Below are positions 29,139 through 38,591 of a stretch of DNA of 39,739 nt, piece after piece (position 1 is the first letter of the stretch; the number at the start of each line of letters is the position of its first letter). This DNA comes from Phycisphaerales bacterium UBA1926 (GTDB lineage Bacteria > Planctomycetota > Phycisphaerae > Phycisphaerales > UBA1924), in the NCBI GenBank assembly GCA_002337215.1, contig DDFO01000025.1, positions 1-39,739 on the forward strand. The letters are read 5' to 3'. The translations under genes and the position numbers were made by a program. The notes under the pieces are model-generated. The model did no database searches. It had not been told where the DNA came from and worked only from the letters and a program-made list of their open reading frames with translations.

Positions 29139-29211
29139 GCCTCCCTAGCTCAATCGGTAGAGCAGCTGACTCTTAATCAGCGGGTTGAAGGTTCGAGTCC
29201 TTCGGGGGGTA
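29139..29211 (+). tRNA. tRNA-Lys (anticodon CTT)
   Basis: The 73-nt gene has acceptor GCCTCCC/GGGGGGT (first pair G-U) and discriminator A. The anticodon stem is GCTGA/TCAGC around loop CTCTTAA, giving anticodon CTT (AAG codons). The T-arm is GAAGG-TTCGAGT-CCTTC. CCA is not encoded. Its 3' part from 29168 is repeated at 38455, making it the probable integration target of the island to its right. Confidence 0.96.
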
Positions 29212-29304
29212 CTTTCGCAAGCCCTTGTTTTGCCGGGGCTTGTGTCGTTTTTGGACTACCCGATTGGGATGCCGAACACGGGCCGACTACCTTCGACTAC
29301 CCGA
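29168..29304 (+). repeat. left direct repeat (att-like): tRNA-Lys 3' end plus downstream flank
   Basis: The 137-bp segment aligns without gaps to 38455-38591, with 15 mismatches by hand count (89% identity). It spans the anticodon-loop to 3' end of tRNA-Lys, the tRNA terminator and a flank with several GACTACC motifs. The last 36 bases (29269-29304) are identical in both copies. Confidence 0.9.
29218..29252 (+). terminator. intrinsic terminator of tRNA-Lys
   Basis: CAAGCCC (29218-29224) pairs with GGGCTTG (29236-29242), followed by TGTCGTTTTT. The stem is largely kept in the right repeat (38505-38510 with 38524-38529), although the loop has changed. Confidence 0.75.
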
Positions 29305-29359
29305 TGGACTACCTCATCGCGTACCTCTTGGGGCCTGCGAGAACAGGCCCGGAGTGACG

Positions 29360-30385
29360 TCAAATCCCGTAGTTCAGCCTCTCTGCGTGCTGGTAGCTGA
29401 TGAACTCTCGGTCGGGAGTCTCAAGCCAGGCGGTTTCCTTGTGGGAGACATCGCTGATGCGACTCGGTGTCATGTTCCCGAACGTCTGCCCCACGTAGTC
29501 CAAAACGGCTTGTTCGTCATCACTCAGCGCGACTGGATCGTCAGGCGCAGGATCGGCAGGGAAGATTTCGGTCCCTTCGTGCCTGTTCTCGTAGACGCGA
29601 ACTTCCCGTCGAATAACTCCGCGATGTTCGAGAAGAGACAGAAGAGGGTCCGCTGCTGGAGAGACAGGGCCGTAGGGCAACCGTTCGTAAGGCAAGCCGG
29701 TCATTGAGATAGCATGTGAACGAAAATAAAGGAAGTCCGTATAGAACAGCAGCTTGTTCAGCTTGGTCCTTGTTACGCAAGTTGCAGACCGGATCAGTCT
29801 GAGCAGGATCGCCTCGAATCGTCTGAGGTCAAACTCGCGGAATCCAGTGGACTCCATCGCTTCCCCCACGATGTCATCGAGCCAGTCGAATGCAGTATTG
29901 CCCCGTTGGCGAGAAAGATGGGAACCCGGTTTGAGCGCAGCTTCAAGCTTGCGCCGCTGCAGGTCGCTCAGCACATGGCCACGTCTATGCAGCAGGTCTT
30001 CCATATGCGAGCGATCACTGCAAGCGCGAATCAACTCGTCATGGGTCTGCTCTTGAAGCGATCCATTCTCGTATCGATTAATCGTTGCTTGGCTCATTCC
30101 GAGCAATGCGGCGAGCGATGCCTGACTCAGTGACCATTCTTCGCGAATACCCTTGATCTGCTCAGGTACCAGCAGGCCATGGCGCTCTCTGTACGCGTTG
30201 AACGCCAACTCAACTGGATCGCCAACAGCTTCGTCCGCAAACTCGGAGCCGCACGTCTCGCAAACGAAATAGGTCACATCTACTTCGACGGTCTCGCCGC
30301 GCACTTCAAGCGAAGCGGGTCGAGTCTCAACTCGAAACGGACGGTCCTCTTCACAGGCGTAGCAGAACTTCGTGGCCGTCATCAT
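29360..30385 (-). CDS. MqsA-like zinc-finger/HTH antitoxin fused to a Panacea (SocA, DUF4065) domain
   Basis: The product has 341 residues from ATG 30385, preceded by AGGGAGG. The next ATG (30382) is also possible. The first 50 residues carry two CxxC pairs (Cys8, Cys11, Cys42, Cys45), a structural zinc ribbon as in MqsA. An HTH of the XRE/HigA type spans about 77-110 (LSQASLAALLGMSQATINRYE). The C-terminal part, about 190-325, matches the Panacea/SocA domain, for example TKLNKLLFYTDFLYFR and ERLPYGPVSP. In known systems Panacea domains neutralise diverse toxins. The start overlaps the toxin stop (ATGATGA), so the two are coupled with the toxin first, as in mqsRA. The HTH should bind the promoter at 30773-30800 and autoregulate. 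Confidence 0.86.
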   Translation of the reverse strand: MMTATKFCYACEEDRPFRVETRPASLEVRGETVEVDVTYFVCETCGSEFADEAVGDPVELAFNAYRERHGLLVPEQIKGIREEWSLSQASLAALLGMSQATINRYENGSLQEQTHDELIRACSDRSHMEDLLHRRGHVLSDLQRRKLEAALKPGSHLSRQRGNTAFDWLDDIVGEAMESTGFREFDLRRFEAILLRLIRSATCVTRTKLNKLLFYTDFLYFRSHAISMTGLPYERLPYGPVSPAADPLLSLLEHRGVIRREVRVYENRHEGTEIFPADPAPDDPVALSDDEQAVLDYVGQTFGNMTPSRISDVSHKETAWLETPDREFISYQHAERLNYGI

Positions 30386-30750
30386 CCATCCTCCCTTAGC
30401 GGGTACTTCATCTGATACTCCGCTTTGTGGAACGACCAAACCATGCAGCGAGCGATCCCCTTGGTCTCGACGACCCGCAGCTTGATGTACACCTCGGTGC
30501 CATCAATGTCTTTCCCGAATACCCAGACCTCCTTGTCGGGTTGAGCGTCATCTGATTCCGGCCCTCGCGAGTAGTTCGCGGGAGTCAGTTCTTTGATCAG
30601 GCCGTATGCCTGCTGCCTCGTCAAATTCAGGTCGGCAAGGTCCTGATCGATGTTCCTAGTCGCCCGCGGAATGGCGCGACAGTTGCCAAACTCGACCGCG
30701 AGCTTGGCGGCAATCAGGACATCCAGAACCTGTTCGCGGCTTACTGACAG
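30382..30750 (-). CDS. MqsR-type toxin, probable CTG start
   Basis: The recognisable part reads EVWVFGKDIDGTEVYIKLRV and MVWSFHKAEYQMKYPLRE, matching MqsR-like toxins (mRNA interferases of the RelE-like fold). The frame stays open and protein-like upstream of the first TTG (30624): SREQVLDVLIAAKL and NIDQDLADLNLTRQQAYGL align with the family N-terminus. No ATG, GTG or TTG lies in that part. AGGAGG (30757-30762) stands 6 bases before a CTG at 30750, so the protein is taken as 122 residues with a CTG start. If TTG 30624 were used, the conserved N-terminal helices would be lost. The gene is first in the operon and overlaps the antitoxin start. Confidence 0.75.
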   Translation of the reverse strand: MSVSREQVLDVLIAAKLAVEFGNCRAIPRATRNIDQDLADLNLTRQQAYGLIKELTPANYSRGPESDDAQPDKEVWVFGKDIDGTEVYIKLRVVETKGIARCMVWSFHKAEYQMKYPLREDG

Positions 30751-30772
30751 AGGATGCCTCCTGTATCGGCAA

Positions 30773-30800
30773 ATACTACTCTGTGATAGCGAAAAGTCAA
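30773..30800 (-). promoter_or_regulatory. promoter of the toxin-antitoxin operon
   Basis: On the minus strand TTGACT (30800-30795) and TAGTAT (30778-30773) are spaced 16 bases apart. The SD AGGAGG follows about 10 bases after the -10 box, giving a very short leader. Its position just before the toxin supports the upstream CTG start. Confidence 0.68.
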
Positions 30801-37077: not shown

Positions 37078-37301
37078 ATCAGATTTTTCTTCAGATCGAT
37101 GAGCAACGCGCGACTTGGTTGGCGGCGCCTGTGTCAGGTGGTGCGATGGTGTGTGCTTGTGTGATGGAACATGGAAATCGCCTCCGTGGGGAAGAGCCGG
37201 AGACGGTCTCGAAGGATCCATCCTTTACGTCTTTTACACCGTTCGCGCCCGGGAGTCATCCGGGGAGGTCTGCACCTCAATGGGCTGGTTGAGGTGATTC
37301 C

Positions 37302-37853
37302 ATGAATAAGCAGCGAGGACAGCAACTGCAGCCTGAGAAGGTATGCAACGACCGATCAATCGACCTCAGGCTTTCGCCAGCGTGCACAGGAGATCCCATA
37401 GACCCCTCGGTGCCACACACCAACGGTACGGTCGAATCCACGCCCTCTCCATCGCCGCGGAGCAATCGAGAGATCGCGGAAGTGCTCCGCGAGTTCATCG
37501 GCCACCGGACATACCGTGAAGTGGGCAGGGATACTGGCTTCCATGCGGAGTCAGTGCGGAGGTATCTGCAAGGCAAGACCAAGATCCCCGCGGACTTTGT
37601 GAGCACGGCGTGTCATGTCTACAACATCGATGCGATGGCCGTGCTGGTCAAGGATGCGTGTGGTCCGTACCGCACGAATCCGAGGCCGAAGCCAGAAGAT
37701 CGCCTCGCGGAGTCGCTCGTCGAGTGGCTGCGGCCGCGGATGGAGCGATGGATGCAGACCAACGTCGTCCCGAACGGGGTATTTTTGCGTCCAATGAAGT
37801 CGAATCCGGAATGTCCAGAGCGAGAAGAAGAACTCTCGCGAGATCAGCCGTAA
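37302..37853 (+). CDS. HTH-like DNA-binding protein
   Basis: The product has 183 residues from ATG 37302, with GAGG 7 bases upstream. A disordered Pro/Ser-rich head (1-50) precedes NREIAEVLREFIGHRTYREV, then GFHAESVRRYLQGKTKIPAD. This fits a helix-turn-helix at about 68-95 of the XRE or CI type. A second helical part follows (EDRLAESLVEWLRPRMERWM). It stands alone, 224 bp after the previous gene. It may regulate island genes. Confidence 0.7.
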   Translation: MNKQRGQQLQPEKVCNDRSIDLRLSPACTGDPIDPSVPHTNGTVESTPSPSPRSNREIAEVLREFIGHRTYREVGRDTGFHAESVRRYLQGKTKIPADFVSTACHVYNIDAMAVLVKDACGPYRTNPRPKPEDRLAESLVEWLRPRMERWMQTNVVPNGVFLRPMKSNPECPEREEELSRDQP

Positions 37854-37974
37854 TTCAGTTGAAATCATGTATTGAGTTGCACTATTCGGATCTCTAAGAG
37901 CATCTTCGATCGTTTGGAATTGAGTTTGAAACGTCGTTCAGACCGGGAAGGTCCGGATACGTCACCGTGTCTTT

Positions 37975-38241
37975 TCATTGCTCAAGTCTGATCAGTTCTC
38001 GTTCGGCCCACTCCCGCCACGCCGGTTCGCCCGCCTGCATGACGATCGCCCGAAGATTGTGCTTGGTCTGTTCATTGGTGGTCTGCGATCGGATCTGCAC
38101 CCACGTCAGCCCCATGAGTGTCGGTAGGTGGTTTGGGTAGTTCTCCAGCGAGGTCCGGTGTGGTCTGCCGGCTCCGTCGATCCGGCCGGCCTCTGCGGGC
38201 GTCATTGCGGGGTTGGGCCTCGGGTCGGGGTGGCCGGGCAT
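37975..38241 (-). CDS. 88-aa hypothetical protein
   Basis: The frame uses ATG 38241; an internal ATG (MTPAEAGRIDG, about 38205) is possible. The C-terminal 45 residues (LTWVQIRSQTTNEQTKHNLR and EPAWREWAERELIRLEQ) have natural composition and are helical. The frame upstream stays open for about 20 codons without a start, so the 5' end may have been lost. There is no clear SD. It is the last gene of the island, on the opposite strand to its neighbours. Confidence 0.5.
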   Translation of the reverse strand: MPGHPDPRPNPAMTPAEAGRIDGAGRPHRTSLENYPNHLPTLMGLTWVQIRSQTTNEQTKHNLRAIVMQAGEPAWREWAERELIRLEQ

Positions 38242-38454
38242 GGACTTGTGGACCCAGGTCCAACTCGATCTTTGGGCTCGACGTTGATCATGCTGGGCAT
38301 CGAATACGACCGGGCAGTGTTACTCGTGTGAGCGCTGATGTTGCGGTGCAGTTTTTGATTACTCGGTACCGTGTTGCACTGGTTCCTGCATCACCAGAGG
38401 CCGTTCTTTGATGTCACTCGATGCGCGTCATGCACATTGGAGTCGCCGCTGACC

Positions 38455-38591
38455 GACTCTTCATCAGCGGGTTGGTGTTTCGAGTCCTTCCGGGGGTACT
38501 GTCGCAAGCCTTGGCACTTCCGGGGCTTGTGTCGCTTTTGGACAACCCGATTGGGACGCCGAACACGGGCCGACTACCTTCGACTACCCGA
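38455..38591 (+). repeat. right direct repeat (att-like): tRNA-Lys 3' fragment plus flank
   Basis: The segment is 122 of 137 identical to 29168-29304. It holds a degenerate tRNA 3' half (anticodon loop CTCTTCA, T-loop TTCGAGT, end GGGGGTA at 38498), a terminator-like hairpin and the GACTACC-containing flank. It lacks the tRNA 5' half and cannot be a functional tRNA. The 442-bp interval 38242-38683 has no gene besides this. Confidence 0.9.

Follow-up and report, generated by a model that had tools for sequence, protein, structure and literature searches.

What lies behind the lysine transfer RNA (tRNA) gene of Phycisphaerales bacterium UBA1926, and why does the 3' half of that gene recur, together with its flank, 9.3 kb downstream? 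The window analyzed here, that is, the whole stretch under study, comprises 39,739 nucleotides (assembly GCA_002337215.1, contig DDFO01000025.1, positions 1 to 39,739 of the forward strand). A preliminary description made from the sequence alone had taken the segment between the two copies for a genomic island without an integrase. Our explanation of the whole locus, which we hold at a probability of about 0.72, is that a decayed island sits at a tRNA-Lys integration hot spot, that it entered via an attachment module and that it was stacked on an older related element.

A displaced tRNA-Lys half and an integration hot spot

ARAGORN calls an intact tRNA-Lys(CTT), as had been claimed, at 29139-29212 on the plus strand, and this gene would be the integration target. 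The sequence from 29168 to 29304 recurs in direct orientation at 38455-38591. The two copies are 137 bp long, ungapped, 89% identical and spaced by 9287 bp; they form the top repeat family and are the only two copies on the 130-kb contig. A hand count of 15 mismatches had been given and is exactly right: 5 fall in the 45 positions of the tRNA half and 10 in the 92 positions beyond the tRNA, and the longest exact run, 34 bp, lies at the distal end of the repeat. When 29100-29330 was compared with its own genome by BLAST, the second copy was retrieved at E 5.8e-46, along with five further matches, all on other contigs. ARAGORN calls tRNA-Arg, tRNA-Lys(TTT) and tRNA-Asn at three of these and nothing at two, so that a single tRNA-Lys(CTT) is seen in this 74%-complete assembly. 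A third, truncated tRNA-Lys-like 3' fragment of 42 nt (90% identity) lies at 7787-7828 of the genome's contig C59 (L004), with no intact tRNA beside it.

The arrangement resembles the tRNA-gene islands collected by Islander, as far as the excerpt of that report goes (PMC4383910): an intact tRNA and a displaced, same-orientation 3' fragment of the same gene downstream bound an interval of 9.3 kb, within the range of 2-200 kb. The fragment starts near the anticodon loop, as in site class A of the same excerpt. The base composition was compared across the boundaries, as the preliminary description had proposed. The guanine-cytosine (GC) content is lower in the island (0.604 at 29213-38454) than upstream (0.687) or downstream (0.642 and 0.662). 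Only 2 of 1206 island-sized windows along the contig (step 100) are equally low in GC, and the lowest starts at 29201 and is the island itself. The first run of N in the contig is at 39740, and none lies inside the island. GC skew is strongly positive (+0.12 to +0.38) at 20001-29000, upstream of the tRNA, and has the opposite sign at 1-11 kb.

Related genomes are designated here by G-numbers, contigs by C-numbers and integrase-family proteins by P-numbers. In G002, a member of the same genus, contig C108 is collinear with 10891-29216 of the window (18 kb), and the homology ends 4 bp past the tRNA. On the far side, open reading frames (ORFs) of at least 80 amino acids were picked and compared with the 130-kb contig by tblastn at E 1e-8. 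None from G002 matches, save for the overlap of an integrase with the tRNA antisense; this integrase is an intact gene of 492 amino acids (PF00589, E 2.1e-15). Five of the ORFs picked from the second congener, G001, match, all to 3-5766 of the window, which lies upstream of the tRNA here. Thus, 29168-38454 is a low-GC stretch with content that was not observed at this site in either congener.

A BLAST survey of 60 relatives, whose counts are lower bounds, found tRNA-Lys 3' fragments in at least 11 of them (G002, G010, G012, G013, G014, G015, G018, G022, G026, G043 and G059). The fragments begin between tRNA positions 22 and 32, at the anticodon stem-loop or immediately ahead of it; in G002 there is an additional piece starting at position 53. 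Among the matches listed, eight fragments from seven genomes share a contig with the intact gene, and all eight lie downstream on the same strand. Integrases with PF00589 adjoin tRNA-Lys in 7 of 14 neighbourhoods viewed (G002, G012, G013, G014, G022, G026 and G063), where most of the tRNA-proximal ORFs in the other seven were judged by ORF starts, without a Pfam scan. Within this bacterial family, the 3' part of tRNA-Lys(CTT) is therefore a hot spot of integration.

Several of the genes beside tRNA-Lys are convergent integrases. At three loci (L039, L041 and L052) their last 22-23 residues are tRNA antisense, and at a fourth (L046) a stretch near the end is. In G022 (C57, L042), an integrase gene and then a D5_N/NrS-1-type primase gene follow the tRNA, a satellite-like layout. 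The flank of the tRNA in the window was considered as the decayed 3' end of such a convergent integrase, and this was rejected: the tblastn matches, which reach to 29417, have the tRNA antisense as their core, and beyond that core the alignment is poor and interrupted by stops.

Two direct repeats on one contig would also be left by a segmental duplication that copied the tRNA 3' end locally and without any mobile element. We consider this extremely improbable, given that the fragments recur in the relatives at nearly the same start point, that synteny breaks at the tRNA and that an integrase stub, described below, is present.

Two probable attachment modules and their proposed history

The repeat copy at the tRNA is the left part of what we call module A (29168-29317, plus strand), which consists of the tRNA 3' half, a terminator-like hairpin and an array of direct repeats, and which has a homologue in G015 (88%). 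Its four exact GACTACC repeats, at 29254, 29285, 29295 and 29307 (29254-29313, plus strand), are candidate arm-type sites of an integrase. Module B, the copy that forms the right boundary (38455-38591, plus strand), has a degenerate tRNA-Lys 3' half, a terminator-like hairpin and an array with exact GACTACC at 38572 and 38582 plus one copy with a single mismatch. Four copies within 60 bp compare with an expectation of 0.0055 per 100 bp. We surveyed the 170 bp behind the tRNA at 16 loci and 12 flanks of displaced halves. The array occurs behind the tRNA in the window and in G015 only (2 of 16) and behind a displaced half in the window only (1 of 12).

Over the 137 bp, module A differs from the G015 module at 18 bases and from module B at 15, and module B differs from the G015 module at 25. 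Because what follows the tRNA within the repeat, a terminator and candidate arm repeats, looks element-borne, and in view of these differences, the 137 bp probably represent two attachment modules of two related elements, and not one pair of attachment (att) sites drifted 11% apart. The preliminary description had read this divergence, together with the missing integrase, as a sign of an old or crippled element or of one mobilised in trans. Its proposal of integration at the tRNA gene stands insofar as the island lies at the tRNA and the two congeners differ behind it; the single att pair is the part we would give up.

One possible alternative is that there is only one element, with attL at 29168 and attR at 38455-38591, which had earlier captured a longer piece of the locus and hence has a similar flank. 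It would fit the presence of only two repeat copies on the contig, the decay of the displaced half (5 changes in 45 positions) and the want of any further trace of a second element; also, the right-hand copy in G015 has the tRNA and terminator in common and no array, as a simple attR would. However, the right copy in the window has the array too and matches the left copy exactly over its last 34 bp, and the array is absent from 14 of the 16 tRNA-Lys flanks and from 11 of the 12 flanks of displaced halves. We regard a single element as unlikely.

We then propose the following history for two related elements. The module of an incoming element, made of a tRNA 3' half that begins near the anticodon stem-loop, a terminator and arm-type repeats, would have recombined with the same stretch of the chromosomal gene. 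Following the standard model, the tRNA would have been rebuilt with a 3' half (29168-29212) supplied by the element, and the former half pushed 9.3 kb to the right. Since this displaced half also carries a repeat array, it would itself have headed an older element of a related kind, and the stack would have arisen in two steps by tandem accretion. Later, the integrase would have been cut to 37 codons and a Fic-type gene internally deleted, and the element would thus no longer be mobile by its own integrase. A toxin-antitoxin pair and a sigma-factor/kinase cluster would be its cargo.

There are precedents for tandem elements among the relatives. G014 has a 585-bp repeat (91%) whose copies are 2.3 kb apart. 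In G166, a 5.9-kb unit with an integrase and the genes of mobile mystery proteins A and B lies between two tRNA-Asp halves, and a further module is 32 kb away. In G004, an integrase frame of 224 amino acids is flanked by two tRNA-Asp halves that lie 2.2 kb apart. As in a tandem array, every member comes with a tRNA fragment of its own, both in the two modules of the window and in G014, G004 and G166. An integrase of its own for each member is not seen in the window, where A has a stub and none was detected in B.

Several observations weigh against our explanation. Neither a remnant of an integrase nor a third tRNA fragment lies to the right of 38591 on the contig, and nothing else of element B is seen there, so that this element is deduced from its module. 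With nine exact copies on the contig, six of them in the two modules, GACTACC is not a rare motif, as base composition predicts about seven on one strand; only its clustering is unusual. The array is common to G015 alone, which weakens the reading: the flank in G114 is without it, and so is a G002 copy that aligns with module A at 83%. That the repeats are arm-type sites we infer from their position and spacing. The sigma-factor/kinase cluster is 45-57% identical to its counterpart in G002, compared with 87% between the window and G002 for the gene upstream of the tRNA, so that mere inheritance of the cluster along with the locus does not account for it. An empty site was not found, and the source assembly is an incomplete draft.

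The membrane-protein gene at 38684 had been proposed as the conserved flank that an empty site would join to the tRNA. Among the 150 family genomes that we compared, including the source (149 others), it has relatives in 3 of the 149 others at E 1e-5, with 43-44% identity. Judged by these relatives, the right-hand neighbour is an accessory gene and no conserved flank, and so it is unable to mark an empty site either. No conserved right flank could be fixed: the next 19 kb of DNA matched scattered places in G001 and G002. One part of this DNA, 40150-42938 of the contig (3 kb), is collinear with the start of contig C143 of G002. A stretch of about 170 bp at about 58196-58369 (L037, 18457-18630) has dozens of matches in G001 and G002, at roughly 70-90%, and might be a dispersed repeat or a common C-terminal domain.

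The integrase stub and its family

The integrase that had been reported as missing has left a trace. At 31480-31590, on the plus strand, the segment 29168-38454 encodes the N-terminal stub of a tyrosine integrase of the tRNA-associated kind, namely residues 1-37, with which the N-terminal domain of this recombinase begins. Of these, 32 are identical in P0004, a protein of 441 amino acids with a precomputed PF00589 assignment (E 7e-15, search of the contig). No PF00589 match was found among the nine island proteins scanned. Since the interval has no complete integrase gene, the integrase filter of Islander, as given in the excerpt cited above (PMC4383910), would reject it.

The stub peptide occurs in 13 of the 150 family genomes, the source and G015 included. 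The integrase genes of this family in G119, G136 and G063 encode 433-455 amino acids. Leaving aside the window and G015, all 13 matches have a tRNA upstream in the same direction, either intact (8) or as a 3' half (5), and the distance from it to the start of the match is 153-246 bp in all 13. These tRNAs are tRNA-Lys, tRNA-Asp or tRNA-Pro. A second scan of genome contigs gave 11 loci, largely in the same genomes, with the same layout in all 11, where the 3' half was read by eye if ARAGORN called no tRNA. Ten of the 11 are in records named Phycisphaerae, Phycisphaerales or Phycisphaeraceae, and one is labelled uncultured bacterium. The flank in G063 has three copies of TACCGGAT, spaced by 10 and 12 bp. 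Motifs like TACCGGAT (at most one mismatch, either strand) precede the integrase in 11 of 11 loci, a raw count without shuffled control, to which the tRNA-Asp stem supplies some copies and in which the tRNA-Asp loci are mutually related.

The predicted structure of a stub-family integrase divides into an N-terminal, a core-binding and a catalytic domain; its best Foldseek match is lambda Int, and its fold agrees with that of a lambda-type tyrosine integrase. The model starts with three strands and a helix, which we take, from the topology of lambda Int, to be the arm-binding domain; the stub in the window spans the first two strands. The intact relatives do not have the full catalytic set of the RKHRH pentad and tyrosine. 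In the 23 aligned members, the box-I column never holds an arginine, the next residue being arginine in five, and the box-II column never holds a histidine. K305, R378, H400 and Y410 (P0001 numbering) are kept in all 23, and so is R303, two residues before the conserved lysine. R303 would be a candidate for an alternative arginine standing in for the box-I residue, of the kind proposed for IntCTnDOT-like integrases. For this alignment, 5 of the 26 matches were left out and the columns were set by two distant sequences of 18-19% identity.

Four of five stub-family integrases scanned give no Pfam match at E 0.01, and a search of the PDB sequences with the integrase profile (hmmsearch) gave no match at E 0.1. 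A scan of viral contigs yielded 25 pattern matches, none of which is related to the stub-family integrase by tblastn. Neither this site nor the integrase family is described in any paper that a literature search listed, although such a search does not prove absence. As in the CTnDOT integrase, the box-I arginine of the stub family is absent from its usual place, as far as the excerpted account of the IntCTnDOT subgroup allows a comparison (PMC8138268). Unlike the lambda-type and IntCTnDOT integrases of that account, the named stub-family loci are in Phycisphaerae-type metagenome-assembled genomes (10 of 11).

Thus, it is tempting to speculate that the stub belongs to a tRNA-targeting integrase family, mainly of Phycisphaerae so far, that has no arginine in the usual box-I position and no box-II histidine, with an invariant R-x-K in their stead. 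A mobile cassette of tRNA half, terminator, arm repeats and integrase would then insert at tRNA-Lys, -Asp or -Pro and stack in tandem, and the window would be a fossil stack. We put this forward tentatively, at somewhat short of even odds; it is weakened because five members have the neighbouring arginine and because the array is common to G015 alone.

The preliminary description had suggested an old or crippled element, which the integrase stub and the broken Fic gene bear out, or one mobilised in trans. The island might indeed still be moved by another integrase, encoded in its own genome or like those at the tRNA of relatives. Such integrases adjoin this tRNA in G002, G012, G013, G014, G022 and G026, and the source genome has seven PF00589 matches. 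But when 11 such integrases were compared with the contig by tblastn, none matched at 1e-3 or below besides the stub and the tRNA overlaps, the best remaining match being E 0.003 at 119216. Precise excision would also leave a tRNA-Lys that folds more weakly (-23.1 versus -28.6 kcal/mol), though ARAGORN would still call it. Mobilisation in trans therefore seems quite improbable to us.

Island genes and relation to known elements

The genes between the repeats had been called accessory, and their domain content agrees. Behind module A, on the minus strand, an MqsA-type antitoxin is fused to a SocA/Panacea domain (29360-30439; TIGR03830 at 84.3 bits, cut-off 61.8; PF13274 at 67.7 bits). It adjoins a possible MqsR-like toxin, also on the minus strand (30382-30624; PF15723 at 16.4 bits, below the cut-off of 26.2), which is given here as the listed ORF, whose true start may be upstream. 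Of the two MqsRA models, then, the antitoxin model scores above its cut-off and the toxin model does not. The antitoxin has relatives in 2 of the 149 other genomes (E 1e-20), and the flanks retrieved for these contain no tRNA.

On the plus strand follow a helix-turn-helix (HTH) regulator like mobile mystery protein A (30872-31252; TIGR02612 at 38.6 bits, below the cut-off of 122.6) and an internally deleted remnant of mobile mystery protein B, a Fic-domain protein (31253-31409), recognized by DNA alignment with the intact gene in G015. The G015 Fic protein scores 145.1 bits with TIGR02613 (cut-off 124.4), and the HTH regulator of the window is 85% identical to a protein behind the tRNA-Lys of G015. 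This genome belongs to another genus; its similarity to the window covers the tRNA, some 180 bp downstream of it, the HTH gene, the end of the Fic gene and the short ORF that encodes the start of the integrase. Compared with G015, the window has lost the middle of the Fic gene, and its toxin-antitoxin pair lies between the module and the HTH gene. In both G015 and G114, tRNA-Lys(CTT) is followed by the genes of mobile mystery proteins A and B. The order of an HTH gene and then a Fic gene is that of the mobile mystery A/B pair (TIGR02612/TIGR02613), but the window has a broken Fic gene, and the HTH proteins of both the window and G015 score under the curated cut-off.

The rest of the cargo is also on the plus strand. 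A basic protein (32053-32535) has weak winged-helix similarity (PF23159 WH_Rok, E 0.041, below cut-off). An extracytoplasmic function (ECF) sigma factor (33698-34288; TIGR02999, 155.4 bits) is followed by a Ser/Thr kinase with a C-terminal FGE-sulfatase-like domain (34327-36516; PF00069 and PF03781; 46% identical to its homologue in the G002 cluster). Then come a small protein of unknown family (36622-37077), found in 3 of the 150 family genomes including its own, one match being weak, and an HTH protein (37302-37853; PF13560 at 23 bits, below cut-off) with two homologues in the G002 cluster. That cluster, on contig C138, is of the same type as 33698-37853 and 45-57% identical, includes a copy of the small protein and stands directly before a tRNA-Lys fragment. 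The PADLOC matches of the kinase, to PD-T4-6 and mad6, fall on its kinase domain, and we do not read them as defence.

A similar layout is that of the tandem ssrA islands of Dehalococcoides, which use serine recombinases and target transfer-messenger RNA (tmRNA), as far as the excerpt of that report goes (PMC3146451). There, too, serial insertions lie behind one tRNA-like gene with fragments as scars, the integration module is beside attL and some islands are without integration genes of their own. The window differs in having a tyrosine recombinase and tRNA-Lys as the target.

Together, a tRNA-Lys island of this sort is already known in kind, and the integrase family is the part worth following. 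The explanation accounts for the unusual repeat of 137 bp, and the integrase that had seemed to be missing can now be identified as a stub, which ties the site to a Phycisphaerae integrase family for which the literature search found no description. The altered catalytic residues of this family offer a direct test of a recombinase working without the usual first arginine. Stacked, half-decayed elements at one tRNA gene would preserve a legible history of successive insertions in a group that has received little study.

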